Assembly (NCBI GenBank): GCA_958295905.1
Contig: OY282382.1
Location: forward strand, 372,001 to 436,000
DNA from: an uncultured Vicinamibacterales bacterium
GTDB taxonomy: Bacteria; Acidobacteriota; Vicinamibacteria; Vicinamibacterales; UBA8438
Length of the DNA stretch: 64,000 nucleotides
Direction: 5' to 3'
This document shows, piece by piece, positions 42,501-62,735 of the stretch (its first letter is position 1; each line of letters starts with the position of its first letter). A model generated the notes under the pieces. It made no database searches and had not been told where the DNA came from. It saw nothing but the letters and a program-made list of their open reading frames with translations. A program made the position numbers and the translations under genes.

Positions 42501-45203
42501 ATGACAAAGATGCGCGCGCTGGCGGCAAGTGGAGCCTTGTGTATTTCCCTGGCCGCGCCGGGGGGGACGTCGCAGGCGCAGCCTGCCGAAACGGTCAACG
42601 GCCGGACCGCGCTCGGGCTGGTGCTGCGGCAGATCAACAACACGGGCACGTTCATGATGGCCACGGCGCATCCCGATGACGAGATCAACGGGTTGCTGGC
42701 ATTGTTGAGTCATGGCGAGGGCGTGCGCACGACGCTGGTCACCGCCACCCGCGGCGAGGGCGGACAGAACGAGATCGGTCCCGAACTGTTCGACGCCCTG
42801 GCGGTGCTGCGGACCGAGGAGCTGCTGGCCGCGCATCGCCTGGACGGGGCGGAGCAGTTCTTCACCCGCGCGGTCGATTTCGGCTACTCCTTCAGCCGCG
42901 GCGAGACGTTCGAGGCGTGGGGGCGCGAGGTGATCCTGGGCGACTTCGTCCGCCTGATCCGCACCCTTCGACCCGACGTCATCGCCGGGATGAGTCCCGA
43001 CGGCGCGGGTGGCGGGCAGCACCATCAGGCATCGGCGGTGCTGGCGCGGGAAGCCTACGCGGCGGCCGCCGATCCCACCCGGTTTCCGGAGCAGTTGGCG
43101 GAAGGGCTGCGGCCGTGGCAGCCGCGGAAGTTCTATTTCATGGACGGATTCCCGGCCTTCCGCTTCGGCGGCGGTTTCGGGCGGACCGCCCCCGGCGGGC
43201 CGGGCGGCCCGCGGGGCGGCCGCGGACAGGCCGCGCGGGCGGGGACGGTGTCCATCAATCTCGGCCGATTCGACCCGCTGCTGGGGCGCACCTACGCCGA
43301 GATCGGCAGCCAGGCCCGCGGCTTGCACAAGTGCCAGGGGATGTCGCCGATCGTCAGTCTGCCGGGGCCGGCGGCGATCCGCTACCGGTTGGACGACACC
43401 GTCATTCCCGGCCACGCGCGGCGGGCCGAGCAGGGGCTGTTCGACGGGGTCGACACCTCGATCGCGGGGCTGGCCCGGTATGCCGGGCTCCAGCCCCCGC
43501 CGGGCCTCGTGGAGGGCCTGGCCACCCTCGCCCGGCACGCCGCCACCTCCCGGCAGGTCTACGAACGGGGCGCCGTCGAGGCGCAGCGGGTGACCCTGCT
43601 GGCGGGTCTCGGGGCGGTCCGCACGCTCCGGAACGAGCTCGCGGCGTTCGGCCTGTCCGACGAGGCGGTCTTCGAGATCGATTTCCGGTTGGCGCAGAAG
43701 GAGGCCCAGTTCGAACGGGCGGTGGTCCTGGCCCACAACCTGCGGCTCGACGTCTTCGCCGACGACGGCGTGGTGACCCCGGGGCAGCCGGTCACGGTGC
43801 TCGCCCAGGTGGCGAACCACGGCGGCGCGGCCACCGCCGTCGAGCGGGTCCGCTTCGACGGCTTCGCGGCCGCCGGCTCCACGTGCGGCGCCGGCGCCCT
43901 CGCCCCCGGCGCGGTGTACCGCTGCGAGACCCCGCTGAACCTGCCGGCGCCCGCGCCGGCGACCGACGTCCACTGGGAGCGGCTGCCCGACGCGGCCCGG
44001 TACCGGGTCGATACGGACGTGCCGTTCGGGGCGCCGTTTCGACCGACGCCGTTCCGCGCCACCTTCGAGCTCGACTTCGGCGCCGCCACCATCGCCGTCG
44101 ACCGGGCCGTCACCTTCCGGTACGGCAGCGACCTGTTCGCCGGCGAAAAGCGCATGGAGCTGCAGGTGGTGCCGCCGTTCGCCGTCGACGTCGCCCCGCA
44201 GATCGCCATCGTGCCCGTCGGGGCGGCCGAGCCCCGCGACGTCCGGGTCACGATTCGCAACGGGGGCGCAGAGCCCGCGGGCGGCGTCGTCAGCCTCGAG
44301 CTGCCCGACGGCTGGCGGGGGACGCCGGAACGGATACCGGTGGCCCTCACCCGTGAGGACGAGGCGCGAACCGTCCGCTTCGCCGTGCATCCGGCCCCCG
44401 ACGCGCCCGCCGGAGACTACCGCATCGGCGCGCGGTTCGAGGCCGGCGGCGCGCAGTTCGACCGCGGCTACCAAGTGGTGGAGTATCCCCACATCGGCCG
44501 GCGGCACTTGGTCCACGCCGCCGAAACGGCGATCAAGGTGATCGACGTCCGGCTCGATCCGGCGCTGCGGGTGGGCTACGTCGACGGGGTCGGCGACGAG
44601 GTCCCGCCGGCGATCGAGCAGCTCGGCGCGCAGTTGGAGCGCATCACGAGCGATCAACTGGTGTTCGGCGACCTGTCCGGGTTCGACGTCATCGTGACCG
44701 GGGTCCGGGCCTACGAGCGGAACCAGGATCTGCGGGCGAACAACGGCCGGTTGCTGGAGTACGTGGAGGCGGGCGGCACCCTCGTCGTGCAGTACAACAA
44801 GTTCGAGTTCAACGAGGCGCAGTACGGCCCCTATCCGGCCCGCGTCAGCCGCAACCGGGTGACGGACGAGTACGCGCCGGTGCGGGTCCTGGCGCCCGAC
44901 CATCCGGTATTCGGTTTTCCGAACGCGCTCTCCGAAGCGACCTGGAGCGGCTGGGTGCAGGAACGTGGACTGTACTTCCTCGGCGACAAGGATCCCGCGT
45001 ACACCGATCTCGTCGAGCTGCGCGATACGTTCCCGTCCAACCCCGGCACCAAGCGAGGCGCCCTGGTCGAAACGCGGTACGGCGAGGGGCGCTGGCTGTA
45101 TGTCGGGCTCGGTCTCTGGCGGCAGCTTCCCGCCGGCACCCCCGGCGCCTACCAGTTGCTGGCGAATCTGCTCAGCCTCGGCAGCGGTTCCGAAGCTCCG
45201 TGA
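42501..45203 (+). CDS. exported PIG-L (LmbE-like) deacetylase with C-terminal beta and GAT-like domains
   Basis: A 900-residue secreted protein. After a signal peptide (to about 27) comes a PIG-L domain with AHPDDE (56-61), the zinc/aspartate site, and 'GAGGGQHHQASAVLARE' with the later His ligands. The middle (about 400-660) is beta-rich with NEW3-like parts ('VRVTIRNGGAEPAGGVVSLE'). The end (about 685-900) resembles a class I glutamine amidotransferase-like domain ('VGYVDGVGDEVPPAIEQLG', 'YVEAGGTLVVQYN') without a clear catalytic Cys. It would deacetylate an N-acetylglucosamine-type compound outside the cytoplasm. It follows bshA, but size and export argue against it being ordinary BshB. 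Confidence 0.85.
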   Translation: MTKMRALAASGALCISLAAPGGTSQAQPAETVNGRTALGLVLRQINNTGTFMMATAHPDDEINGLLALLSHGEGVRTTLVTATRGEGGQNEIGPELFDALAVLRTEELLAAHRLDGAEQFFTRAVDFGYSFSRGETFEAWGREVILGDFVRLIRTLRPDVIAGMSPDGAGGGQHHQASAVLAREAYAAAADPTRFPEQLAEGLRPWQPRKFYFMDGFPAFRFGGGFGRTAPGGPGGPRGGRGQAARAGTVSINLGRFDPLLGRTYAEIGSQARGLHKCQGMSPIVSLPGPAAIRYRLDDTVIPGHARRAEQGLFDGVDTSIAGLARYAGLQPPPGLVEGLATLARHAATSRQVYERGAVEAQRVTLLAGLGAVRTLRNELAAFGLSDEAVFEIDFRLAQKEAQFERAVVLAHNLRLDVFADDGVVTPGQPVTVLAQVANHGGAATAVERVRFDGFAAAGSTCGAGALAPGAVYRCETPLNLPAPAPATDVHWERLPDAARYRVDTDVPFGAPFRPTPFRATFELDFGAATIAVDRAVTFRYGSDLFAGEKRMELQVVPPFAVDVAPQIAIVPVGAAEPRDVRVTIRNGGAEPAGGVVSLELPDGWRGTPERIPVALTREDEARTVRFAVHPAPDAPAGDYRIGARFEAGGAQFDRGYQVVEYPHIGRRHLVHAAETAIKVIDVRLDPALRVGYVDGVGDEVPPAIEQLGAQLERITSDQLVFGDLSGFDVIVTGVRAYERNQDLRANNGRLLEYVEAGGTLVVQYNKFEFNEAQYGPYPARVSRNRVTDEYAPVRVLAPDHPVFGFPNALSEATWSGWVQERGLYFLGDKDPAYTDLVELRDTFPSNPGTKRGALVETRYGEGRWLYVGLGLWRQLPAGTPGAYQLLANLLSLGSGSEAP

Positions 45204-45640
45204 GTCAGACTCGGGGGGCGGCAAGCGGCACCGGCGGCGGCGGTTCCGTGCCGGGAGCCGTGGCGGGAGCCCCGCTGGATTCGACCGGCGATGCATCCCG
45301 CATGGACTGCGTTGCTCGGTGGCTGGCGAATCTGCTCAGCCCCGGCGGCGGTTCCGAAGCTCCGTGAGTCAGCCCCGGGGGGCGGCAAGCGGCACCGGCG
45401 GCGGCGGTTCCGTGCCGGGAGCCCCGCTGGATTCGACCGGCGATGCACCCCGCATGGACTGCGTTGCTCGGTGGCTGGCGAATCTGCTCAGCCCCGGCGG
45501 CGGTTCCGAAGCTCCGTGAGTCAGCCCCGGCGGGCGGCAAGCGGCGCCGGCGGCGGCGGTTCCGTGCCGGGAGCCGCGGCGGGAGCCCCGCTGGATTCGA
45601 CCGGCGATGCCATCCCGCATGGGGATTGCGTTGCTCGGTG
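45161..45640 (+). repeat. tandem array copying the 3' end of the deacetylase gene
   Basis: GGCGAATCTGCTCAGCC, the codons for ANLLS near the end of the gene, starts units at 45161, 45325 and 45478 (periods 164 and 153). Each unit repeats the last codons and stop ('GGTTCCGAAGCTCCGTGA') plus about 110 bases of downstream sequence. A 12-base insertion explains the length difference. The third unit ends near 45640. The gap 45204-45783 has no gene. Confidence 0.85.
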
Positions 45641-48623: not shown

Positions 48624-48979
48624 CCCGGAAATCGTCGCCCTGCGGCTCCGATGGCCGACCAACCAACCCTCCAGCGGTCCGCGACGTGCCACGGCGCACA
48701 CGCCTGCCCCCGGAAATCGTCGCCGTAGGAGTTTCCGCGCCAGCGAAACGCCGACCGCGACCGCAAAGTCGCCCCGCGGCCTCCGATGGCCGACCAACCA
48801 CCCCTCCAGCAGTCCGCGCCGTGCCACGGCGCACACGCCTGCCCCCGGAAATCGTCGCCGTAGGAGTTTCCGCGCCAGCGAAACGCCGACCGCGACCGCA
48901 AGGTCGCCCCGCGGCCTCCGATGGCCGACCAACCAACCCTCCAGCAGTCCGCGACGTGCCACGGCGCACACGCCTGGCG
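48624..48979. repeat. three tandem REP-like units
   Basis: Units begin CCCGGAAATCGTCGCC at 48624, 48709 and 48844. Units two and three are 135 bases and nearly identical, with the hairpin 'GGAGTTTCCGCGCCAGCGAAA' region and the tail 'CTCCAGCAGTCCGCG...CCACGGCGCACACGCC'. Unit one lacks the hairpin part and is 85 bases. It fills the gap between the acyltransferase and methyltransferase genes. Confidence 0.8.
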
Positions 48980-48999: not shown

Positions 49000-49746
49000 C
49001 TACGGCCGGGCGGCGGCGAACCGCAGGCGGACGTAGTCGACGACCCAACTCCCGTCCGGGTGCTGAATGCGCGGGGCCAGCCGCCCCCGCATCTCGGCCA
49101 GCAGCGCCGCGCGTTCCGGCTCCGGCACCGCGGTGATGAACGGCTGGGCGAACACCTCCAGCCAGTGGACCACGTCGCCGGGCAGCGGGGTCGGGCGCGG
49201 GAACAACTGGACCGAGTCGACCCGGAAGCCGCGCCGTTCGAGACGGGTGCGGTACTGGTCGGCGGTGGGGAAGTACCAGGGGTCCACGGCGGCGCTGTCG
49301 ACGCCCCGCTGGCGCAGCGCCTCGGCGAAGGACTCTCGAATCGAGGCGACGCAGCCGGCGCCGCCGCACTCGGCGACGAACCGCCCGCCGGGCTTCAGGG
49401 CCTTCCAGACGCCGTCGATGGCGGCGTCCGGATCCGGGATCCAATGGAGGACGGCGTTGCTGAAGACGGCGTCGAACTCGGCTTCGAACGGCAGCTCGCG
49501 GGCATCGATGATCCGGGCGTCGAGCCCCCGCTGCAGCGCCGCCCAAATCTGCTCGGGGCTGCTGTCGACGCCGACGACCAGGCAACCCGCGTTCCGGAAC
49601 CGCTCGGTGAGGGCGCCGTCCCCGCAGCCGACGTCCAGGATGCGCTCGCCGGGCCGGGGCGCCAGCAGGTCCGCGACCGGCGCGCCCAGATCCGAGACGA
49701 ACCGGGCGTGCTCGGCGTAGGATTCCGGGTTCCAGTACTGAGTCAT
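49000..49746 (-). CDS. SAM-dependent methyltransferase (class I)
   Basis: A 248-residue cytoplasmic protein. 'ERILDVGCGDGALTERFRNA' is the SAM-binding motif I, 'VVGVDSSPEQI' motif post-I, and 'FDAVFSNAVLHWIPDPDAAI' with 'ALKPGGRFVAECGG' motifs II and III. It is like trans-aconitate or malonyl-ACP methyltransferases in layout, but the substrate is unknown. It follows the his operon on the same strand with a gap of 130 bases that contains a duplicated hisA tail. Confidence 0.83.
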   Translation of the reverse strand: MTQYWNPESYAEHARFVSDLGAPVADLLAPRPGERILDVGCGDGALTERFRNAGCLVVGVDSSPEQIWAALQRGLDARIIDARELPFEAEFDAVFSNAVLHWIPDPDAAIDGVWKALKPGGRFVAECGGAGCVASIRESFAEALRQRGVDSAAVDPWYFPTADQYRTRLERRGFRVDSVQLFPRPTPLPGDVVHWLEVFAQPFITAVPEPERAALLAEMRGRLAPRIQHPDGSWVVDYVRLRFAAARP

Positions 49747-49789
49747 GGCGGTGTGGTCCGGCTGTCCGCAACCCGGCGCGGGCGGGTTG

Positions 49790-49949
49790 CGGGATTCTAT
49801 GCGTGATCGAGGGCCAGGGCGCCGGTGTAGATCGCCATCCCCACGACCGCGTCGATGCCCGCGACATCGCGGGATTCTATGCGTGATCGAGGGCCAGGGC
49901 ACCGGTGTAGATCGCCATCCCCACGACCGCGTCGATGCCCGCGGCATCG
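49790..49949 (-). repeat. 80-base tandem duplication of the 3' end of hisA
   Basis: 49790-49869 and 49870-49949 are nearly identical (GGGATTCTATGCGTGATCGA starts each). The upstream copy, in the sense of hisA, contains the real hisA stop. The other is a silent copy of the last ~23 codons and stop lying between hisA and the methyltransferase gene. Confidence 0.85.
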
Positions 49950-50560
49950 AGGGCGTCGATCTCGTCCCGCGTGGTGATGCCGCCGGCGGCGGTGACGGGC
50001 CGGCTCGTCGCCGCCGCCACCGCCTGCGCCGCGTCCAGGTCGGTGCCGGTCATCAGCCCCTCCCGGTCCACGTGGGTGTACAGGAACTCGCCGCAGTACG
50101 GCTCGAGCCCGCGCACCGCCTCGACCGCGGTCACCTCGACCGGCTCCGTCCAGCCTCGGATGACGACCCGGCCGGCCTTGCTGTCGACCGCCGCGATGAT
50201 CCGTTCGACCCCGACCGCGTCCGCCAGCGACCGGGCGAACTCGAGGTCCGGCCGGCCGTCCCGGAAGAGGGCCGAGCTGACGATGACCGCCCGCGCGCCG
50301 TAGTCGAGCACCGCCTCGGCTCGGTCGATCGAGCGGATGCCGCCGCCGACCCGGCAGGGAAGCCGCGGCGCGACCCGACGGACCAGCGCGTCGTTGTCGC
50401 CGGACCCCAGGGCGGCGTCGAGGTCGATGAGCTGCACCTTCGGAAACGCCGCGAACCGCGCGACCCACCCGTCGAGGTCGTCGCTCTCGATGGCCAGGCG
50501 CTCCCCCTGGACGAGTTGCACCACGCGGCCGTTCTTGAGGTCGATGGAGGGGATCAGCAT
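49877..50560 (-). CDS. hisA: phosphoribosylformimino-5-aminoimidazole carboxamide ribotide isomerase
   Basis: A 227-residue TIM-barrel enzyme that isomerises ProFAR to PRFAR in histidine synthesis. '[20 protein letters not shown]' with the catalytic Asp, 'CRVGGGIRSID' and 'AAGGITTRDEIDAL' (phosphate sites) are present, as is the duplicated half-barrel pattern. It is shorter than typical HisA (about 240-245). It is the last his gene. Its ATG (50558-50560) overlaps the stop of a 33-codon duplicated frame, ATGCTGA, rather than hisF itself. Confidence 0.9.
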   Translation of the reverse strand: MLIPSIDLKNGRVVQLVQGERLAIESDDLDGWVARFAAFPKVQLIDLDAALGSGDNDALVRRVAPRLPCRVGGGIRSIDRAEAVLDYGARAVIVSSALFRDGRPDLEFARSLADAVGVERIIAAVDSKAGRVVIRGWTEPVEVTAVEAVRGLEPYCGEFLYTHVDREGLMTGTDLDAAQAVAAATSRPVTAAGGITTRDEIDALDAAGIDAVVGMAIYTGALALDHA

Positions 50561-50721
50561 GGGCCGGTCCGGGTGACCGGGTCCGGGCCGCCGGCCCCGA
50601 TCCCGGGCGGTCTCGGTAGCCGCACGAACTTGAGGTCGATGGAGGGGATCAGCATGGGCCGGTCCGGGTGACCGGGTCCGGGCCGCCTGCCCCGATCCCG
50701 GGCGGTCTCGGCAGCCGCACG
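50532..50721 (-). repeat. 95-base tandem duplication of the hisF-hisA junction
   Basis: About 95 bases around the junction occur twice (for example GGAGGGGATCAGCATGGGCC at 50546 and 50641). Each copy has the last ~23 codons of hisF and the first 9 codons of hisA. Confidence 0.85.
50554..50655 (-). other. 33-codon fused frame between hisF and hisA
   Basis: The duplication joins the first nine codons of hisA (MLIPSIDLK) to the last part of hisF ([11 protein letters not shown] ... TRTGPC). Its ATG overlaps the hisF stop, and its stop overlaps the hisA start, each as ATGCTGA. Ribosomes could therefore pass from hisF through this frame to hisA. It is probably a by-product with no function as a protein, but it preserves coupling. 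Confidence 0.6.
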
Positions 50722-51464
50722 GGGATGCCGTGCGCGCGCAGATGGGCCTTGAGGTCCTCGACCGCGTGCTCGGCATAGTGGAATATCGAGGCGGCGAGGG
50801 CGGCGTCGGCCCGTCCCGCGGTGAAGACCTCGACGAAATGGTCGAACGTGCCGGCGCCGCCGGAGGCGATCACGGGGATGGGCACGGCGGACGACACCGC
50901 CGCGGTGAGCCCGCAGTCGAAGCCCTGCTTCGTGCCGTCGCGGTCGATCGAGGTCAGCAGAATTTCGCCGGCGCCGCGGTCGGCCGCCTCGCGCGCCCAT
51001 TCCACCGCGTCCCGACCGGTGCCCTGCCGGCCGCTGCGGACGTAGATCCTGAAGCGATCGTCCTCGCGCTTGGCGTCGATGGCGACGATGACCGCCTGGC
51101 TGCCGTAGCGCCTCGCCAGGGTCGTGATCAGCGCCGGTCGGGCGAGCGCCGCGGTGTTGATGCCCACCTTGTCCGCCCCCGCCTCGATCGCCGCCTCCGC
51201 GTGGTCCTCGCCGCGGATGCCGCCGCCGACGCACAGCGGCAGGAAGATCTCGCGCGCGACGGCCCGGATCGTCTCCGCGAGCGCCTTGCGGCCCTCGATG
51301 GTCGCGGTGACGTCGAGAATCACAACCTCGTCGATCCCCTCCCGGTTGTACCGGCCGGCCAGGGTGGCGGGATCGCCCGCGCGCCGCAGGCCCTCGAAGT
51401 TGATCCCCTTGACGACCGCGCCGTCGCGAACGTCGAGGCAGGCGATGATGCGTTTCGACAGCAT
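50649..51464 (-). CDS. hisF: imidazole glycerol phosphate synthase, cyclase subunit
   Basis: A 271-residue TIM-barrel subunit that uses ammonia from HisH to convert PRFAR into IGP and AICAR. '[20 protein letters not shown]' holds the catalytic Asp, '[11 protein letters not shown]' the next, '[14 protein letters not shown]' and '[16 protein letters not shown]' the phosphate sites, and '[15 protein letters not shown]' the second Asp. It is longer than usual (about 253-258) by a Pro/Gly-rich tail after 'HGIPVR'. It follows hisH by 8 bases. Confidence 0.93.
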
Positions 51465-51472
51465 GGTGCGGC

Positions 51473-52129
51473 TCAGCGCAGCCGGCGCAGGAAGTTTCCC
51501 AGGATGCGGAGACCGACGTCCGACGACTTCTCCGGGTGGAACTGCACGCCGCCGACCGCATTCTGCTCGACCGCCGCCGCGAACTCGAGCCCGTAACGGG
51601 TCGACCCCACGCAGCTCTCCGTGAGGGGGGCGGCGTAGGAATGCGTGAAGTAGACTTGGTCGCCCTCGTCGACGCCGTCCAGCAGCCACGAGCCGCGGGT
51701 GCGGTGCAGCGAGTTCCATCCCACGTGCGGCACCTTGAACGCGGCGCGGCCGCCGCCGTCGGTCCGGGGGGGGCTGCCGCCGGTTCCCGCCGGAGCGGCC
51801 TCCTCCCCGGTGATCAGGCTGCACCGGCCCGGCAGCAGCGCCAAGCCGGGGTGGCCGGGCGCCTCGGCGCTGCCGTCGAACAGCCACTGCATGCCGACGC
51901 AGATGCCGAGAAGCGGCCGCCCCCGCGCGATATGGCTCCGGATGGCGGCGCGCCAGTCGGCGTCGAGGGCCGAGGTGACCTCGAAGTTGCCGACGCCGGG
52001 CACGATGATGCCGGCCGCCCCCGCAAGGTCCGCCGGCGCCGCCGGGGTCGTCACCGGCGCCCCCAGGTGGGCCAGCGCCTTGCGCACCGACGTCAGGTTC
52101 CCGGCCCCGTAGTCAATCAACGCAATCAT
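51473..52129 (-). CDS. hisH: imidazole glycerol phosphate synthase, glutamine amidotransferase subunit
   Basis: A 218-residue class I amidotransferase that supplies ammonia from glutamine to HisF. The catalytic triad is visible: C77 in GICVGMQ, H198 and E200 in FHPEKSS. '[15 protein letters not shown]' opens the fold. An insert '[20 protein letters not shown]' around residue 108-127 is low complexity and unusual. Its upstream gap contains a duplicated hisB tail. Confidence 0.93.
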
Positions 52130-52507
52130 CGCCCAACACCTTGCCGCCGGCCCGGCCCGCTCGGGAGCCGGCGCCCTCCCCAGGAGGCGGCGCCGTCTTC
52201 CACCGCGCAGACTCCCCGGCTACAACAACCCCTTCGTGCTCGGCAACTGCCGGGCCAGCCGGTCGTCCTTGCCGCACGCGACCCGGAGCGCCCGCGCGAA
52301 CGCCTTGAACAGCGCCTCGACCAGCAACGCAATCATCGCCCAACACCTTGCCGCCGGCCCGGCCTGCTCGGGAGGCGGCGCCGTCTTCCACCGCGCAGAC
52401 TCCCCGGCTACAACAACCCCTTCGTGCTCGGCAACTGCCGGGCCAGCCGGTCGTCCTTGTCGCACGCGACCCGGAGCGCCCGCGCGAACGCCTTGAACAG
52501 CGCCTCG
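52118..52507 (-). repeat. 207-base tandem duplication of the hisB-hisH junction
   Basis: CAACGCAATCATCGCCCAAC occurs at 52118 and 52325; each unit then carries 'CACCTTGCCGCCGGCCCGGC', 'CCGCGCAGACTCCCCGGC' and the hisB tail sequence up to 'GAACAGCGCCTCGACC'. One unit has about 20 extra bases (GAGCCGGCGCCCTCCCC part). The other contains the real hisB 3' end. Confidence 0.85.
52220..52336 (-). other. 38-codon fused frame between hisB and hisH
   Basis: The duplication joins the first four codons of hisH (MIAL) to the last ~33 codons of hisB ([18 protein letters not shown] ... PSTKGLL), ending with the duplicated hisB stop 91 bases before hisH. It differs from the real HisB tail by one residue (G for D). 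It is probably non-functional. Confidence 0.6.
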
Positions 52508-52995
52508 ACCTGGTGGTGGCTCGACCGGCCGTAGAGCACCTTGAGGTGCACGTTGGCCCGCGCCCCCTGGGCGAAGCCCTCGAAGAAGTCGTGCAGCAGC
52601 TCCGACTGCAGGTCGCCGACCCGCCTGACGCGCAGGCGCAGGTCCACCACCGCGTGGGGGCGCCCGCTGAGGTCGATGGCCGCGACGCCCAGGGTCTCGT
52701 CCATCGGCATGACGAAGTAGCCGGCGCGGTTGATGCCGCGCCGCGACCCGATCGCCTTCGCGACGGCCTCGCCGAGGGCTATCCCGACGTCCTCGACGGT
52801 GTGGTGCTGGTCGACGTCGAGGTCCCCCGCGGCGTCGATCCGCAGATCGAAGGCGCCGTGCCGCGCCACCAGCTCCAGCATGTGGTCGAGAAAGCGGATC
52901 CCGGTGCTGATCGCGTACCGGCCGCGCCCTTCGAGACCCAGCCGGATCGTGATCTGCGTCTCGGTGGTCCGCCGCTCGATCCGGGCGCGTCTCAT
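52408..52995 (-). CDS. hisB: imidazoleglycerol-phosphate dehydratase
   Basis: A 195-residue monofunctional IGP dehydratase. The manganese-binding His clusters are present: '[17 protein letters not shown]', '[18 protein letters not shown]', and '[19 protein letters not shown]'. It removes water from IGP to give imidazole acetol phosphate. The histidinol-phosphatase domain found in enterobacterial HisB is absent. It lies 61 bases after hisD. Confidence 0.94.
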
Positions 52996-53056
52996 GGCCG
53001 CCGCACCCGGCCGGGACCGCCCGCCGCCCCGCGGCCACCGTTCCGCGGCGGCGTCG

Positions 53057-54298
53057 TCATCGGCTCCTCATGCGCACCCGGACCGACTCGGCGTGGGCGG
53101 TCAGCCCCTCCGCCTCGGCCAGGGTGAGAATGGTCGGGGCCAGGGTCTCCAGCCCCGCCTGCGTGATGCGCTGGGTGCTCTGCACGGACACGAAGTCCGA
53201 CGCGCTGAGCCCGCCGCGGAACCGCGCCGCCCCCCCCGTCGGCAGGACGTGGTTCGAGCCGGTCGCATAGTCGCCGGCCGCCTGCGCCGCGTGCGGGCCG
53301 ATGAAGACGGTGCCGGCGCGGGTCGTACGCGCCGCGACCTCTTCGTCGAGGCACACCAAGTGCTCCGGCGCGATGTCGTTGGCCAGCTCGATGGCCTCGT
53401 CGAGCGAGCCGGTGACCACGATGACCCCGTACCGCTCGATGGACGCCCGCGCGGGTCCGTCGGCGGGAAGCTGCGCCTCGACGCGCCGGGCGATGCGCGC
53501 GGCGAACCGGCGGTCGGGGGTCAGCACGATGGCGCGGGCGTCGGGGTCGTGCTCGGCCTGCGCGATCAGATCGGCGGCGATCCAGCGCGTCTCGCCCCGC
53601 ACCGCGACGATGACGATCTCAGTCGGACCGGCGTGGAAGTCGATGGGGCAGTCGGCCGACACCAGCGCCTTGGCGGCGGCGACCCAGGCGCTTCCCGGTC
53701 CGACGATCTTGTCCACCCGCGGGACGGTCGCGGTGCCGTAGGCGAGCGCGGCGACGGCGTGGGCGCCGCCGAGGCGGAACAGGCGGGTGACGCCGGCGAC
53801 GGCGGCCGCGGCGAGGGTCGCGGGGTCCGGGCGCGGGCAGACCACGATGACCTCGGGCACCCCCGCGACCCGGGCGGGGATCGCGGTCATCAGCAGCGAT
53901 GACGGCAGCGGGTAGCGTCCGGCGGGGACGTAGCAGCCGACCCGCTGGAGCGGGGTCACGCGCTGCTCGATCTCGACCCCCCCGGTGACCGTCGTCCGCC
54001 ATCCCCGCGGCAACTGCCGCCGCGTGACGCGGCGGATGTGGTTCGCCGATGTGCGCAGCGCCGCCCGCAGGTCGGCGGGGACGGCCCGCAACGCCGCCTT
54101 CGCCTCCGCCGGCGGAACCTCGACCGGACCGGCGAGGCCGTCGAACCGCCGCGCATAACGCAGCAGCGCCTCATCGCCCGAGCGGCGGACCGCGCCCACG
54201 ATCCGGGCGACCCGGCGGGTCAGGGCGGGGTCGACGTCCCGGCGCCGATCGATCAGGCGCCGGACGGCCGGGCGATCCGACGCGTCGATGATCTGCAT
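53057..54298 (-). CDS. hisD: histidinol dehydrogenase
   Basis: A 413-residue NAD- and zinc-dependent enzyme that oxidises histidinol to histidine in two steps. '[20 protein letters not shown]', '[19 protein letters not shown]' and 'GPTEIVIVA' form the NAD region. '[14 protein letters not shown]' and '[12 protein letters not shown]' carry zinc and catalytic Glu/His residues, and '[20 protein letters not shown]' the final His. ATG 54296-54298 overlaps the hisG stop by one base (TGATG). Confidence 0.94.
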
Positions 54299-55188
54299 CA
54301 GAGGACGATCTTGTTCAGCGGGAACTCCACGATGCCCTCGGCCCGCGCCGCCTTCAGCTTCGGAATCAGCTCGCGCGCCGACGACTCCTCGATGATGGTG
54401 GAGACCGCGACCCACGCGTCGTCGCTGAGGGGGGCCACCGTCGGGTCGTGCAGGGCCGGCAGCAACCCGAGCACCTGGTCGAGCTCGGCGCGCCGGACGT
54501 TCAGCATCAGGCCGACCCGGCCCTGGGCCTCGATGGCCGCGCGCAGCAACAGGGCGATGTTCTCGATCTTGGTCCGCTTCCAGTCGTCCTCGAGGGCCGC
54601 GGGGTTCGCGATCAACTGGGGGTTGGACTCGATGACGGTATCGATGATGCGCAGCCGGTTGGCGCGCAGGGTCGAGCCGGTCTCGGTCGCCTCGACGATG
54701 GCGTCGGCGAGCAGCGGCGGCTTGACCTCCGTCGCCCCCCACGAGAACTCCACCTTCACCGGCACCTGCAGGCGTTCGAAGTACGCCTCGGTCACCCGCA
54801 CCAGCTCGGTCGCGATGGTGGCGCCGGCGAGGTCCTGCGGGGTGCGGTACTCCGAGTCCTCGGGGGCCGCCAGGACCCACCGGACCTTGCGGAAGCTCTG
54901 CTTCGAGTAGACGAGGTCCGCGACGTCGACGACCTCGCCGCCGGTGGAGGCATGATGCTCCGCGATCCAGTCCTGGCCGGTCAGCCCGGCGTCGAGCGCG
55001 GCGTCGGCGACGTAGCGGGCCATCTCCTGGGCCCGGATCAGCGTGCACTCGATCTCGGGGTCGTCGATCGCGGGAAAGTAGGAACGGGAACTGGTGTAGA
55101 TGTTGAAGCCCGAGTGCGCGAACAACTGGATCGTCGAGTCCTGCAGCGAACCCTTGGGGATACCGAGTCGCAGTTTCCTGTCAGCCAT
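54298..55188 (-). CDS. hisG: ATP phosphoribosyltransferase (long form)
   Basis: A 296-residue enzyme that joins ATP and PRPP in the first step of histidine synthesis. '[18 protein letters not shown]' opens domain I, '[13 protein letters not shown]' is the substrate loop, and '[19 protein letters not shown]' the PRPP site. The C-terminal ~75 residues ('[20 protein letters not shown]') are the regulatory ACT-like domain, so histidine feedback is expected and HisZ is not needed. It starts 19 bases after hisI. Confidence 0.94.
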
Positions 55189-55207
55189 GTTCGATGCGTC
55201 AACCGTG

Positions 55208-55567
55208 TCAGCGGGGAGAAGGGGTCGCGCCCGGGCCGTCCGCGGGACGATCGAGCGGGCGGTACGCGCGGTAGAAGCAGGTCCGTTCGCCGGTATGGCA
55301 GACGTTGCCGTCACCGTTGCGCGTGACCCGCAGCAGCACCGTGTCGTCGTCGCAGTCGACGAGAATCTGCTGCACCGCGAGGGTGTTGCCCGACGTTTCG
55401 CCCTTCATCCACAGCTTGCCGCGGGTCCGGCTGAAGAACGTGGCGAAGCCCGAGCTGCGGGTCCGGTCCAGCGCCTCCTGGTTCATGAAGCCGACCATCA
55501 GGACCTCGTCGCTCGAGGCGTCCTGCACGACGGCGGGGATGAGTCCGTCCAGTTTCGAAAAGTCCAT
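55208..55567 (-). CDS. hisI: phosphoribosyl-AMP cyclohydrolase
   Basis: A 119-residue monofunctional cyclohydrolase that opens the ring of PR-AMP. '[12 protein letters not shown]', '[18 protein letters not shown]' and '[11 protein letters not shown]' with the zinc/magnesium ligands, then '[11 protein letters not shown]' with the two further Cys, are all present. HisE (PR-ATP pyrophosphatase) is not fused and not in the window. It is the first gene of the operon, 74 bases after an intrinsic terminator. Confidence 0.94.
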
Positions 55568-55640
55568 GTCGTGTCCTGCCGCGCGCCGGCGGGCGGCTCC
55601 GTCCGCGGATCGTCGGCCTGATGCGTTCCCCGATGAGCTC

Positions 55641-55673
55641 AAAAAAAAAGCCCCGCCGGGTCGTCGGCGGGGC
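55641..55673 (-). terminator. intrinsic terminator in the his leader (possible attenuator)
   Basis: Read on the minus strand, GCCCCGCCG pairs perfectly with CGGCGGGGC (9 bp) around a 6-base loop and is followed directly by nine T. It sits between the candidate promoter at 55799-55827 and hisI. Upstream, GGGGCGG near 55741 on the same strand could pair with CCGCCCC in the 5' arm as an antiterminator. No His-rich leader peptide is visible, so the sensing mechanism is unknown. Confidence 0.75.
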
Positions 55674-55789
55674 GGTCGCATGCGTTGGGGTGACGGGCGG
55701 CCGCGCTACCTCACATGACATGCAGAGCCGGAGCCCGCCCCGCGGGGCAGTCCGCTGCAACAGAGTGATGGCCATGCCGCCGTACCATA

Positions 55790-56239
55790 TTGTGGAGTAC
55801 CCTATCCCACGCAGTCGGACGTGTCAAACGGATGCCGACCCCGGCCGGACGCACGCAGATCACCGCCCACGTCTGCGAGCAGGGCTGGTCGGCGATCGCC
55901 CAGTGGACCGGCGCGCCGCTGCAGCGGGTGCTCGAGGCGGCGGGCGGGGTGCAGCCGGGCGCGCGGTACGTGATGCTCGACACCGTCGACGGCTGGTACG
56001 AGGGCATCGACCTGTTCGAGGTCGCGCACTCGCAGACCATCCTCGCCTACGGCCTGAACGGCGGGGATCTACCGGTCGGCAACGGCGCGCCGCTGCGGCT
56101 CCGGGTCGAACGCCAGTGCGGGTACAAGAACCTGAAGTTCCTGAAGTCGATCCAGGTGGTCGACTCGATGGCCGGATTCGGCCAGGGCACCGGCGGCATC
56201 AACTCCGACTGGGGATTCCACTGGTACGCGGGTGTCTAG
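55790..56239 (+). pseudogene. 5'-truncated molybdopterin oxidoreductase
   Basis: The frame encodes the C-terminal part of a sulfite-oxidase-fold molybdopterin-binding protein: 'CEQGWSAIAQWTGAPL', 'SQTILAYGLNGGDLPV', 'GAPLRLRVERQCGYKNLKFL' and the terminal 'WGFHWYAG'. Homology begins abruptly at about codon 17, so the domain's first half, with the cofactor Cys, is missing. The TAG stop comes from the CTAG end of the family B element at 56236. It is likely non-functional. Confidence 0.7.
55799..55827 (-). promoter_or_regulatory. candidate his operon promoter
   Basis: A perfect -35 TTGACA (55822-55827, minus strand) is followed after 17 bases by TAGGGT (55799-55804). Transcription would start near 55792, giving a leader of about 225 bases that contains the terminator. 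The promoter overlaps the start of the truncated oxidoreductase frame on the other strand. Confidence 0.5.
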
Positions 56240-56370
56240 TGGTCCGTCACGTCATAAGGTTCCGACAGACGGACTTGAGTCGATGATGTGATTCTCCTGC
56301 ATGGGAGACCGTTCTTGGTTCGAGAAGAGTTCCCCGATAGTCCTAATGTTTATTTGTGGCTATGCACTAG
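56236..56370. mobile_element. MITE-like element, family B copy 2 (135 bp)
   Basis: Identical to 22280-22414 except for one base, with the same CTAGTG/CACTAG ends. It sits at the 3' end of the truncated oxidoreductase frame and supplies its stop codon. Confidence 0.8.
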
Positions 56371-56412
56371 CGCCTCGCCACGACTAAAAACAGGGTCGCC
56401 GGGGCACTCACT
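56367..56412. mobile_element. fragment of the 40904-type element, inverted
   Basis: From the shared CTAG, 'CGCCTCGCCACGACTAAAAA' and 'CAGGGTCGCCGGGGCACTCAC' are the reverse complement of the right end of the element at 40904-41033. The other end is missing, so one insertion interrupted or replaced another here. Confidence 0.6.
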
Positions 56413-56423
56413 GCCCGGCTGCA

Positions 56424-56595
56424 CAGGAGCATCCCACGCCGACGGCGTGTGACGGCCCGCCCCCGATTCGAGGGGTCGCCACCGCCTTGCCGACCGGCCG
56501 GCGCCGCGTGGGACCCACGATGCCGCACGTCCGGAGCCCGGGACCCGCCACGATTCCGCCTGCGCACGGCGGCGGCGGAGCGTGGGATGGTCCTG
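56424..56595. mobile_element. MITE-like element, family A copy 2 (172 bp)
   Basis: The inverted relative of 7606-7776, with ends CAGGAGCATCCCACGC and GCGTGGGATGGTCCTG. It is flanked by a perfect 9-base direct repeat CCGGCTGCA at 56415-56423 and 56596-56604, a target-site duplication. From 56605 to 56926 I see no gene or repeat. Confidence 0.8.
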
Positions 56596-56926
56596 CCGGC
56601 TGCACGGTTGCACGTCAGATTCGTGAGACGACCGCCCTGTCGCTGCCAGATTGGCGATTCCGATCCTGTTCCCGGTCTGATGCCCTCCGAACGGGCCTTT
56701 CAGGCTTCGACGCGATGGGGCGCCTCGGGGCCGCCCGCGCCGGATACCCCCCAACGGCACCGGCTCACTTTCTTGACGTGCACCCGGCTGCATGTTGACG
56801 CTCGCACGGGCGGCCAAGTGCCGATATGCTAGGGGACTGCTCTGTGGCAACGGAGCCGGCTTCTGCGGGTTGGTTGGACGAGAGAGGCGGAGCCCGGAGG
56901 CGGCGCTCCCGGGCTGGAACAACGGC

Positions 56927-59900
56927 ATGTACGACGACATGACATCGCGCGCACCGGGACATCCGTTCGAACCGTCTCCGCCGTGGCGTGGGGCGCCCGC
57001 TTCGGCCCGCCGGCGGGTGCGGATGCCCGCGGTGGTCCTCGCGGGGGCGGGGCTCATCGCCTCGGCCCCGCCCGCGGCGGGACAGGTGTCTCCCTCCGTC
57101 GTGGTCGCGCCGTTCACGAACGTGAGCCGGCAACCCGCCGATGACTGGATCGGCGCGGGCATCGCCGAGACGATCGCCGTCGATCTGCAGGACGCCGGAC
57201 TGGAGGTCGTCGGACACCGCGCCGCCGCGCCGCCACGCATCGGTCACCGCGGCGCCCGGCCCGGCTCCGGTCCCGCCGCCGCGCTCGACGCCTATCGCCG
57301 GCAGGGTGTCGCCTGGATGATCGACGGCACCCTGCAGCGGCTGGGAGACGCCCTGCGCATAACGACCCGGATCGTGGACGTCGAGACCGGCGCGGTCGAG
57401 TTCGGCACCCGTGTCGACGGCGGGATCGCCGACATCTTCGACATCCAGGACGAGGTCGCCGCGGTGCTTGCGGCCCGGCTTTCGACGGGTCCGAACGGCG
57501 GGTCTCAGCCGGGGGTGCGGCCCGCCCCGGCGAGACCCGCCCGGGATCGGCTTCCCCCGGAGCGGTTCGCGCCGGTCAGGCCCGCCCGGGATCGGTTCGC
57601 CCCGGCGAGGCCCGCCGCCCCGGCGGTCCGGCCCGCGCCCCCGCCGCCGCCCGGCGTCGGCGCGGTTCCCCCCGCGGTTTCCGAGATTCGGCCCGGGCGG
57701 CCCGTCAGCGGCGCACTGGCCTTCGGCGGCGGGTCCGCGTCCCCGCCCGCCCCGGCCCGGGACGCCGCCCGGCGGCCGTCCGGCGGCCGGGGAGGCGGGG
57801 GATTCGCCCCGACCCCCCTGGATCGTCCGAGCGCGGTCATCAAGCGGACCGTCACGCCGCCCGAGATCGACGGCCGGCTCGACGACTCGGTCTGGGAGAC
57901 CGCCACTCACCTCACGAACTTCATCCAGATCGCGCCGATCGAGGGCGCGCCGGGGTCGGAGGAGACCGAGGTGTGGATGGCCTATGACAGCGACAACCTC
58001 TACTTTGCATTCTACGCCCACTACACGCGGCCCGAGACCATGCGCATCAACCGGGCCGACCGCGAGGAGATCCGCGGCGACGACCGCATGTCGATCCTCT
58101 TCGACCCGTTCCTGGACCAGCAGCGCGCGTACCAGTTCGAGGTGAACGGCTACGGCGTGCAGGCCGACTCGCTCGTGAACGCCGACGGCAGCACCGGTTT
58201 CTCGCGGTCGAGCGGCAGCTCGTCGGCGACCCGCGGCGGCTCGCGGCGCGGCGGCAGCGGCATGAGCAGCTCGGGGCAGTTCGGCATCCGCGGCGACGAC
58301 TCGTGGAACGCCCTGTTCGACACCGGCGGCCGGGTCGTGGCGGACGGCTGGACGGCCGAGATGCGGATTCCGTTCAAGAGCCTGCGGTATCCGTCGCGCG
58401 GCCGGGGCCAGCCGCACCGCTGGGGCTTCCAGATCACCCGGATCATCCGGGACAAGTCGGAGGCGCAGTCGTGGTCGCCGATCTCGCGGGGCGTGGCCGG
58501 CCAGCTCACACAGTTCGGCGTGCTCGAGGGCCTGTCCGATCTGTCGCTGAGCCGCAACCTCGAGCTCCTGCCCGAGGTGACCGGGTTCCGGCTCGGCTCG
58601 CTCGACACCGACAGCGGCGAGTACTCCACCGACGACCCCACCGGGGAGATGGGATTCGGCGTCAAGTACGGGATCACCCCCAACTTGACCGCGGATTTCA
58701 CCATCAACCCCGACTTCTCCCAGATCGAGTCGGACCGGCCGCAGATCGAGACCAATCAGCGGTTCGCGCTGTTCTATCCCGAGCAGCGCCCGTTCTTCCT
58801 CGAGGGGCAGGAGATCTTCCAGACCGCGACGCCGCTGACCCTGGTGCACACCCGCACCATCGTCGACCCCCGCTTCGGCGGCAAGCTGACCGGCAAGGTG
58901 GGCCAAGCCACGCTGGGGGTCGTGGTGGCCGACGACGAGGCGGCGGGCCGTCTCGACGACACCGCGCATCCGCGGTACGGCACCACCGCGCAGACCGTCC
59001 TCGGACGCGCCCGCTACGACTTCTACGCCGAGTCGTATCTCGGCGCCGTCATGACGGCGAGGGAGTTCGGCGCCGACTACAACCGGGTGGCCGGGGTCGA
59101 CGGACGGTTCCGGCTGGGCCGGACCCACCGCTTGAGCTTCCTCGCGGCGGGGTCCGAGACGCGGGACGAGGCGGCCGGATCGATCTCCGGGCCGGCCATC
59201 GAGGCGGATTTCTCGAAGCAGGGGCGCAACCTCAGCTACAACGTCGCCTACAGCCGCATCGACCCCGATTTCGCCACCAACACCGGCTTCCTGCCGCGCA
59301 TCGATCTGCAGCAGACCAGCGGCACCGCGTCGTACCGGTGGTGGCCCGAGTCGACCATCATGACCTGGGGCCCCTCGGTGACCTATCTGCGCCTCTACGA
59401 CCACGCCGGCGTGCTGCAGGACGAGCAGGTCCAGGGCACCGCGAGCTTCTCGTTCCGCAACAACATGGCCATCACCGGCATGGTCAACCGCGACCTCGAG
59501 CGCTACGGGGCGATCGACTTCCGCAAGACCGGCTTCGGCTTCTTCGGGGTCATGAGCGCGCGCCTCCTCTCGATATACGGCGGCTACAACTTCGGTGACG
59601 GCATCTACTACGACCCCGACAACCCCTACATCGGGCGATCGACCGTCGGCAACGTCAACTTCCGCTTCCAGCCCACGTCCCGGCTGCGGACGGAGTTCAC
59701 CATGGTATCGAGCGACTTCGTCGATCCGGTGGCCGAGGCCGACATCTTCAACGTCAAGATATTCCGCACCCGCACCACCTACCAGTTCACCGACCGGCTG
59801 CTGGCGCGCTACATCCTGGAGCACAACACGGCGGCCGCGACCCTCGGCAACAACGTGCTCTTCACCTACCGCATCAACGCCGGCACCGTCGTCTTCATCG

Positions 59901-60019
59901 GCTACGACGACCGCTACCGGCAGGGCATGCAGATCGACGACCTGCTGTTCCCGACCGCCGAGCTGCTGCGCACGAACCGGGCCGTCTTCGGCAAGATCTC
60001 ATATCTTTTCCGGTACTGA
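56927..60019 (+). CDS. DUF5916 / CBM9-like exported protein with N-terminal TolB-like domain
   Basis: A 1030-residue exported protein. After a signal region (about 30-50) an N-terminal domain 'VVVAPFTNVSRQPADDWIGA' to 'RITTRIVDVETGAVEF' resembles the TolB-like domain of adenylate-cyclase-type sensors. Residues about 180-295 are Pro/Arg/Gly-rich repeats (ARPARDR units). Residues about 305-440 are a CBM9-like sugar-binding fold ('PPEIDGRLDDSVWETATHLT'), and the rest is a DUF5916 region of beta strands ending in Phe-Arg-Tyr (SYLFRY), like an outer-membrane barrel. The substrate is unknown. ATG 56927 is chosen with no clear ribosome site; ATG 56939 is possible. Confidence 0.8.
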   Translation: MYDDMTSRAPGHPFEPSPPWRGAPASARRRVRMPAVVLAGAGLIASAPPAAGQVSPSVVVAPFTNVSRQPADDWIGAGIAETIAVDLQDAGLEVVGHRAAAPPRIGHRGARPGSGPAAALDAYRRQGVAWMIDGTLQRLGDALRITTRIVDVETGAVEFGTRVDGGIADIFDIQDEVAAVLAARLSTGPNGGSQPGVRPAPARPARDRLPPERFAPVRPARDRFAPARPAAPAVRPAPPPPPGVGAVPPAVSEIRPGRPVSGALAFGGGSASPPAPARDAARRPSGGRGGGGFAPTPLDRPSAVIKRTVTPPEIDGRLDDSVWETATHLTNFIQIAPIEGAPGSEETEVWMAYDSDNLYFAFYAHYTRPETMRINRADREEIRGDDRMSILFDPFLDQQRAYQFEVNGYGVQADSLVNADGSTGFSRSSGSSSATRGGSRRGGSGMSSSGQFGIRGDDSWNALFDTGGRVVADGWTAEMRIPFKSLRYPSRGRGQPHRWGFQITRIIRDKSEAQSWSPISRGVAGQLTQFGVLEGLSDLSLSRNLELLPEVTGFRLGSLDTDSGEYSTDDPTGEMGFGVKYGITPNLTADFTINPDFSQIESDRPQIETNQRFALFYPEQRPFFLEGQEIFQTATPLTLVHTRTIVDPRFGGKLTGKVGQATLGVVVADDEAAGRLDDTAHPRYGTTAQTVLGRARYDFYAESYLGAVMTAREFGADYNRVAGVDGRFRLGRTHRLSFLAAGSETRDEAAGSISGPAIEADFSKQGRNLSYNVAYSRIDPDFATNTGFLPRIDLQQTSGTASYRWWPESTIMTWGPSVTYLRLYDHAGVLQDEQVQGTASFSFRNNMAITGMVNRDLERYGAIDFRKTGFGFFGVMSARLLSIYGGYNFGDGIYYDPDNPYIGRSTVGNVNFRFQPTSRLRTEFTMVSSDFVDPVAEADIFNVKIFRTRTTYQFTDRLLARYILEHNTAAATLGNNVLFTYRINAGTVVFIGYDDRYRQGMQIDDLLFPTAELLRTNRAVFGKISYLFRY

Positions 60020-61864: not shown

Positions 61865-62578
61865 ATGCGCGGCGGCGCCGAACAGCCCCTTGCCGGCGCG
61901 GCGTCCATCGGCGAGCTGAACGAACGGTCGCTGCACCGGGCCCTGAAGGCGCGCTACGCCGTCGCCGGCGGCGCGACCGAGCAGGCCGTCGACGGCTTCG
62001 TCGCCGACGTCGTCGCCGGCGGCCGCATCGTCGAGGTCCACACCGGCAGCTTCCGGCCCCTCAAGCGCAAACTGCCGCGGCTGCTCGAGCGGTACCCGGT
62101 CACGCTGGTGCATCCCGTCGCCAGGGACCGTTACATCGTCAAGATGGCGGCCGACCCGAACGCGCCTCCGACCCGGCGCAAGTCGCCGAAGCGCGGCTCC
62201 GTCTTCGAGGTCTTCCCGGCCCTCGCCAGCATCCCGACCCTGCTCGCGCATCCCAACCTGACGCTCGAGGTCGTGATGACGGTCGATGAAGAAGTCCGTG
62301 CGAAGAACGGGCGCGGCAGTTGGCGACGCCGCGGCTGGGCCATCCTCGACCGCCGGCTCGTGGAGGTCGTCGAGACCCACACCATCGCGTCGATGGCCGA
62401 CCTGTTCGCCCTGCTCGACGCCGACCTGCCCGAGCGGTTCACGACCCGCGACCTCGCGGCGGCCATGAGGTCGCCGCGGCGCCTCGGTGAACTGGCCGCG
62501 TTCTGCTTCCGCAAGGGCGGCGTCAGCGAGACCTGCGGCAAGAACGGCAACGCCCTGGTGTACCGGCGGGTTGATTGA
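61865..62578 (+). CDS. conserved protein of unknown function, possible PD-(D/E)XK-like fold
   Basis: A 237-residue cytoplasmic protein. It starts 'LNERSLHRALKARYAVAGGA' and continues 'VDGFVADVVAGGRIVEVHTG' and 'LKRKLPRLLERYPVTLVHPV', which gives an Asp then E-V-H in place of the usual ExK, so a nuclease-like fold without the standard lysine is possible. The middle is basic (RRKSPKRG, NGRGSWRRRGW) and could bind DNA. The C-terminus 'TTRDLAAAMRSPRRLGELAAF' looks like a winged helix. The function is unknown. GGAGG precedes ATG 61865. Its last codons recur twice downstream. Confidence 0.7.
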   Translation: MRGGAEQPLAGAASIGELNERSLHRALKARYAVAGGATEQAVDGFVADVVAGGRIVEVHTGSFRPLKRKLPRLLERYPVTLVHPVARDRYIVKMAADPNAPPTRRKSPKRGSVFEVFPALASIPTLLAHPNLTLEVVMTVDEEVRAKNGRGSWRRRGWAILDRRLVEVVETHTIASMADLFALLDADLPERFTTRDLAAAMRSPRRLGELAAFCFRKGGVSETCGKNGNALVYRRVD

Positions 62579-62735
62579 ACCTCGCATCGACGCCCGGCCG
62601 CCCCGGCCGGCCGCGAGATCTGCGGCAAGAACAGCAACGCTTCGTGTGCCGGCGCGGCACTCTAGCAAGCATTGGATAGTTGGCTGGGCGACGGCTGCGG
62701 CAAGAACAGCAACGCTTCGTGTGCCGGCGCAGCGC
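62534..62735 (+). repeat. degenerate tandem copies of the 3' end of the preceding gene
   Basis: TGCGGCAAGAACGGCAACGC (codons CGKNGNA) in the gene at 62534 recurs as TGCGGCAAGAACAGCAACGC at 62621 and 62696, periods 87 and 75. Both copies also carry 'TTCGTGTGCCGGCGC', matching LVYRR codons. 62579-62803 contains no gene. Confidence 0.75.

Follow-up and report, generated by a model that had tools for sequence, protein, structure and literature searches.

Attenuators before his genes in other bacteria

The closest described systems are the his attenuators of gammaproteobacteria and the new His-leader attenuators in Firmicutes (Bacillus cereus group, Eubacteriales and Erysipelotrichales), as presented in the accessible part of PMC9413887. 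In the type found in E. coli, a leader ORF with His codons and an overlapping terminator and antiterminator lie ahead of the his genes; the Firmicutes leaders, found by comparison of upstream regions, combine a short peptide having three to five His codons in a row with a terminator and an antiterminator (PMC9413887, same part). Words containing "acidobacter" have 0 occurrences in the text of PMC9413887. For Actinobacteria, the accessible portion of PMC1262725 states that no conserved RNA structure was seen before histidine operons, while leader ORFs on leaderless RNA act as sensors of other amino acids, as in Corynebacterium ilvBNC (PMC11857589, accessible portion). Short leader genes have been counted in Acidobacteria, with no his gene named in the available part of that source (PMC4833913). 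Our literature search, which left the subscription literature largely outside, found no earlier report of his leader-peptide attenuation for Acidobacteriota, although an earlier report is possible, and no literature joining Vicinamibacter and leader peptide.

The window analysed here, a whole stretch of 64,000 nt from an uncultured Vicinamibacterales bacterium, has ahead of hisI an arrangement with the elements common to the gammaproteobacterial and Firmicutes systems: a short ORF with His codons, a terminator and an antiterminator. As in the gammaproteobacterial system, the terminator and antiterminator overlap and his genes lie downstream; like the Firmicutes leaders, it was recognised by comparing upstream regions. 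It differs from both in phylum, from the Firmicutes leaders also in its run of His codons, and from the gammaproteobacterial attenuator also in gene order, in having no Rfam match, in an ORF that apparently stands at the 5' end of the RNA, and in having fewer His codons than the enteric his leader, which has seven. With the actinobacterial ORFs it would share an amino-acid sensor on leaderless RNA; the phylum and the amino acid are different, and here the leaderless status is deduced from promoter position. The mechanism itself is known, its occurrence in Acidobacteriota appears unreported as far as we found, and the probable leaderless start is the feature of interest.

Organization of the leader and the his operon

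We propose that the region controls the hisIGDBHFA operon by ribosome-mediated transcription attenuation of the classical leader-peptide kind, a reading to which we assign a probability of about 0.9. The features are as follows.

55827-55822, minus strand: -35 element TTGACA, read directly in the sequence
55804-55799, minus strand: -10 element TAGGGT, 10 nt ahead of the leader ATG
55788-55711, minus strand: leader-peptide ORF MVRRHGHHSVAADCPAGRAPALHVM with its stop, 25 codons, probably leaderless
55776-55765, minus strand: putative regulatory codons CAT GGC CAT CAC (His-Gly-His-His)
55743-55735, minus strand: antiterminator 5' arm GCGGGGCGG, lying in the leader ORF after the His codons and before the stop
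55713-55711, minus strand: stop codon of the leader ORF
55675-55667, minus strand: antiterminator 3' arm CCGCCCCGC, which overlaps the 5' arm of the terminator
55673-55650, minus strand: intrinsic terminator hairpin GCCCCGCCG-ACGACC-CGGCGGGGC, 9 bp, all GC
55649-55641, minus strand: terminator U-tract, nine T
55567-55208, minus strand: hisI, first gene of the operon (PF01502 PRA-CH, E 3.7e-31)
55188-54298, minus strand: hisG (Pfam HisG)
54298-53057, minus strand: hisD (ORF)
52995-52408, minus strand: hisB (Pfam IGPD)
52129-51473, minus strand: hisH (Pfam GATase)
51464-50649, minus strand: hisF (ORF)
50560-49877, minus strand: hisA (ORF)

All genes of the operon lie on the minus strand, with hisG to hisA spanning 55188-49877; the hisD, hisF and hisA ORFs are presumably those genes, judging by their sequence. 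A 17-nt spacer separates TTGACA from TAGGGT, and about 220 nt lie between the likely start site and the hisI ATG at 55567. The preliminary description, which had given a TTGACA promoter with 17-base spacing, a leader of about 225 bases, a perfect intrinsic terminator with nine T before hisI and a GGGGCGG/CCGCCCC alternative pairing, is borne out in these respects, and the alternative pairing extends to nine GC pairs (55743-55735 with 55675-55667). Its remark that there is no His codon run does not hold, as the ATG at 55788 opens an ORF with CAT GGC CAT CAC.

A consensus promoter scan of 49500-57500 called 0 promoters, and the leader promoter was missed because TAGGGT matches only 3/6 of TATAAT, which is under the threshold; the same 8 kb hold 1 terminator-like site against 1.7 expected from shuffles, so that the promoter and terminator of the window do not by themselves clearly exceed chance. 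The ORF has three His within four codons; shuffling the 140-nt leader produced this in 25 of 5000 cases, and three or more His in six ORF codons arise in 220 of 5000 shuffles of 300 nt; at this chance level the HGHH run of the window would be suggestive only.

Conservation of the leader in related genomes

Among 100 related genomes, a set that takes in the window's own, 76 yielded a HisI; one upstream region was taken from each, giving 76 loci. In 68 of them the 300 nt ahead of hisI contain an ORF having 3 or more His per 6 codons (hereafter His ORF), compared with 5.5% of the 1520 shuffles and 7 of the 76 reverse strands; when at least 4 His per 6 codons are demanded, the count is 60 of 76 against 0.26% of 1520 shuffles and 2 of 76 reverse strands. 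Of the 76 loci, 62 have a strict terminator no more than 400 nt ahead of hisI (17 of 760 shuffles, 3 of 76 reverse strands). Some few of the 14 loci without one show imperfect hairpins by eye. In L063 the terminator lies 310-335 nt from hisI and there is no His ORF; besides L063, all four loci of the genus g9, treated below, lack the leader. Both elements occur together in 59 of the 76, and a histidine attenuator is therefore predicted before hisI in most of the hisI-bearing genomes searched. Three more His ORFs (L075, L090 and L091) appear once 420 nt are scanned; that scan lists 72 of 76 loci, of which L094, with a long open frame, is not counted. The family shows little conservation of the leader between ORF and terminator. 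The conserved layout of promoter, ORF and terminator in the related genomes supports attenuation of the his operon, and the refuting outcome named in the preliminary description, a leader that orthologous operons do not share, did not arise.

Longer His runs stand at this place in relatives (HHHHHH in L083, HHHHHHH in L095 and HGHHHHVHH in L007), and the window, with no more than three clustered His codons, belongs to a set of 8 such loci. At the place of the window's CAT GGC CAT CAC, its two congeners, L003 and L004, read CAC GGC CAC CAC. Since a His-codon ORF is present in the window, in both congeners and, not more than 300 nt from hisI, in 68 of 76 loci, the layout is that of ribosome-mediated attenuation with His codons as the sensor, and the earlier proposal of a new sensor accordingly falls: attenuation of the his operon is supported, the absence of a His leader is not.

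Six loci (L023, L030, L082, L120, L122 and L124) have a His leader ORF upstream of hisI without a T-run. By eye, GGACAAT at the ribosome-binding site of hisI in L023 has a possible pairing partner in ATTGTCC, which hints at translational attenuation; similar sequestration of the hisI Shine-Dalgarno (SD) sequence is partial in L030 and was not found by eye in L082 or L124.

Terminator and antiterminator

Covariation tests and the alignment used 21 hand-picked loci of the window's family. In the terminator, which by itself has -20.9 kcal/mol in the window, 97.4% of the cells pair, with compensatory C-G to U-A changes among them; 6 cells are changed on both sides, and the covariation score is 0.126 versus 0.075. 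For all three measures none of 500 shuffles was as high and all six slid versions were lower; two further measures were weaker, the number of pairs changed on both sides being reached by 20 of 500 shuffles and the number of further pair types by 452 of 500. C-G/G-C swaps in an order-wide terminator pair table were discarded, as that table mixes two registers.

The antiterminator was examined by energy in 59 of the 68 loci with a His ORF, the nine without a terminator by the strict criterion being excluded. The leader from just after the stalled ribosome, beginning after the second His codon, was paired with the terminator 5' arm, and the mean duplex energy was -20.4 kcal/mol versus -15.2 kcal/mol in shuffled leaders, with a mean z of -2.26 and values below -1 in 49 of the 59 loci. 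For the window the duplex is -23.7 kcal/mol with z = -1.0, which is weak for this locus alone. In every locus but L060 (58 of 59) the paired arm starts before the stop codon; that of the window, at -31 to -12 of the stop codon, lies further off than in most relatives. When own partners were compared with foreign ones, own pairing gave -22.7 kcal/mol against a permutation mean of -20.8 kcal/mol, and 0 of 2000 permutations were as low. This cross-pairing is noisy per locus (the own partner beats the row mean in 37 of 59 and has a median rank of 17 among 58), and relatedness of the loci may inflate its mean. Two energy tests over the 59 loci thus find an arm of the kind that an antiterminator needs. 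Column-wise covariation of the antiterminator in one fixed register over the 21 loci gave no signal, with 73.8% of the cells paired versus 74.4% in shuffles; slid registers drop to 34.5-65.0%.

Proposed mechanism

The proposal is built on observed features and their comparison, namely a recurrent His ORF, a terminator with compensatory changes, the complementarity and place of the antiterminator arm, and the promoter geometry. Transcription would begin at, or a few bases ahead of, the AUG at 55788, and a ribosome probably initiates on the leaderless RNA. When His-tRNA is scarce, the ribosome is expected to stall at CAU-GGC-CAU-CAC, which would leave the G-rich segment 55743-55735 exposed and able to pair with the 5' arm of the terminator at 55675-55667; this antiterminator pairing would lead to antitermination and expression of the his genes. 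With ample His-tRNA, the ribosome should reach the stop at 55713-55711 and cover or disrupt 55743-55735, and the terminator (55673-55641) would form. Once the 3' arm is there, the terminator is still part of the minimum-energy fold of the RNA freed by a stalled ribosome, so read-through would depend on folding order during transcription; attenuation models assume a folding order that favours the antiterminator.

Of the other explanations the one that survives best, unlikely as we consider it, is that the attenuator is decaying in the window's genus, the weak His run having left a mostly constitutive, partly terminating leader in which promoter and terminator persist. Only HGHH is left in the genus genomes L001, L003 and L004, and the frame of the window after the His codons (55711-55764) is shifted relative to L003 and L004 by small insertions. 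Within the same family, moreover, the leader ORF is missing in all four loci of the genus g9, which is a natural loss series, and three of these (L016, L018 and L094) keep a promoter-like TTGAC..TACGGT while leader ORF and terminator are gone; the fourth, L019, keeps a terminator-like hairpin, seen by eye, without a His ORF. Against decay, HGHH occupies the same codon positions in the three genomes of the genus although the leader DNA of the window matches that of its two congeners at only 79% and 77% (several further members of the family align over shorter stretches), and the nine-T terminator and the antiterminator arm are intact. The RNA arms are kept across the frame shift, as if the tail of the leader (55711-55764) mattered more as RNA than as peptide. 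The weak HGHH version of the genus may mean either a modest response or decay.

Much less probable than decay is a real attenuator that senses histidine or tRNA-His directly, in the manner of a T-box or riboswitch, with the His codons incidental. In its favour are the terminator with an alternative pairing and the shortness of the window's His run; against it are the enrichment of His codons, far over shuffles, at the same place in related genomes, and the poor conservation that the family shows in the leader between ORF and terminator. The T-box motif used was found in 0 of 76 leaders, and Rfam gave no match in the window at the gathering score and detected no T-box there or in the ten loci searched, so that a T-box or riboswitch was rejected; the preliminary description had likewise seen no clear T-box. 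The window and ten relatives gave only weak matches at a relaxed threshold. His_leader (Rfam family RF00514) did not turn up when the window leader and ten loci, drawn from relatives and from the window's own genome, were searched at the relaxed threshold. These weak matches, the best of which in the window is Spot_42 (22.3 bits versus a gathering score of 80, E 0.027), fall on the terminator region and were discounted.

Least credible of all, in our judgement, is a terminator that merely ends an upstream transcript, with hisI served by its own promoter downstream of it. In its favour, a hairpin alone is not rare in shuffles, and a promoter between terminator and hisI may have escaped notice, as the geometry test described below covers only the hisI start and the consensus scan misses the leader promoter too. 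Against it, no plausible minus-strand gene is seen ending just upstream (the Pfam-matched neighbours, 55790-56239 and 56792-60019, are on the plus strand), and promoter, His ORF and terminator recur together in relatives.

A probably leaderless sensor ORF

A promoter was called in the leaders when a -35 element beginning with TT matched at least 4/6 of TTGACA and a TANNNT box stood 5-12 nt before an in-frame start codon. Such a call was made in 54 of the 68 leaders and in none of the other 14, and where called, TANNNT lies 7-11 nt ahead of the leader start codon, with a mode of 9 nt (32 of 54 loci). The spacer is 18 nt in 43 of the called promoters, 17 in 10 and 19 in 1, and the -35 element is exactly TTGACA in 41 of 54. 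Directly at the hisI start, the same geometry occurs in 0 of 76 loci. In 14 further loci, which were picked for having a His ORF, the TANNNT box is 6-10 nt ahead of the start in 14 of 14, with a -35 element of at least 4/6 in 10. SD-like tetramers are found before the leader start in 2 of 68 loci versus 29 of 68 before hisI. Given this promoter position and the scarcity of SD-like tetramers, the leader ORF is probably leaderless or nearly so. Mycobacterial leaderless poly-Cys ORFs reportedly act as attenuators (Canestrari 2020). In three Acidobacteria genomes, leaderless genes average 13.3%, as deduced from such a promoter signal (accessible part of PMC3160421). The leader geometry predicts leaderless translation of the sensor peptide, and leaderless initiation in Acidobacteriota becomes testable in this way: if loading at the 5' AUG fails, the switch would fail.

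Other leaders of the same promoter geometry were sought in the window's genome and set aside. The pattern gave six matches and its reversed version, used as a control, gave four. One of the six is the his leader and another is L188; the remaining four had no His cluster. The L188 match (C1:920368 onward) opens a 53-codon ORF with HHAH near its end, and the DNA after this ORF resembles, by eye, the reverse complement of the window at about 56460-56560, perhaps a dispersed repeat.

Occurrence in other lineages of Acidobacteriota

Comparable His ORFs precede hisI in contigs labelled Bryobacterales, Granulicella, Terriglobus and Acidobacteriaceae. A contig scan for relatives, using the same test, gave a His ORF within 420 nt in 57 of 80 loci, many of which belong to the same genomes as among the 76. 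They include 51 of the 54 loci L101-L154 (mostly acidobacterial, two labelled Acidimicrobiia), where L136, with a long open frame, looks spurious; all five later loci labelled as acidobacterial (5/5: L161, L162, L165, L178 and L179); and L176, labelled only "bacterium". Loci labelled as other groups have it in 0 of 20, where hisI need not be the first gene and absence is thus unproven. The leader peptides of L107 and L109, labelled Vicinamibacteria, are identical to those of the congeners L003 and L004.

It may be that one ancient attenuator governs the his operon across Acidobacteriota through a peptide read without a leader, 70S ribosomes loading at the emerging 5' end, and that some lineages (L023, L030, perhaps L082 and L124) have swapped the terminator for a structure hiding the hisI ribosome-binding site, that is, for translational control; we offer this tentatively, at somewhat less than even odds.

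Neighbourhood of the his operon

The plus-strand ORF at 55790-56239 runs divergently over the his promoter and matches the Oxidored_molyb Pfam profile at positions 56-163 of 169 only, its N-terminal part being apparently missing. Within the operon, imperfect tandem or near-tandem duplications of 61-151 bp, with second copies 95-98% alike, mark the ends of his genes: 49789-49948 at the 3' end of hisA, 50534-50721 at the hisF-hisA junction and 52118-52510 at the 3' end of hisB with the hisB-hisH gap. Further arrays lie elsewhere in the window at 45158-45575, 48634-48976 and 62526-62733, two of 135 and 152 bp and one looser, of 46 nt.
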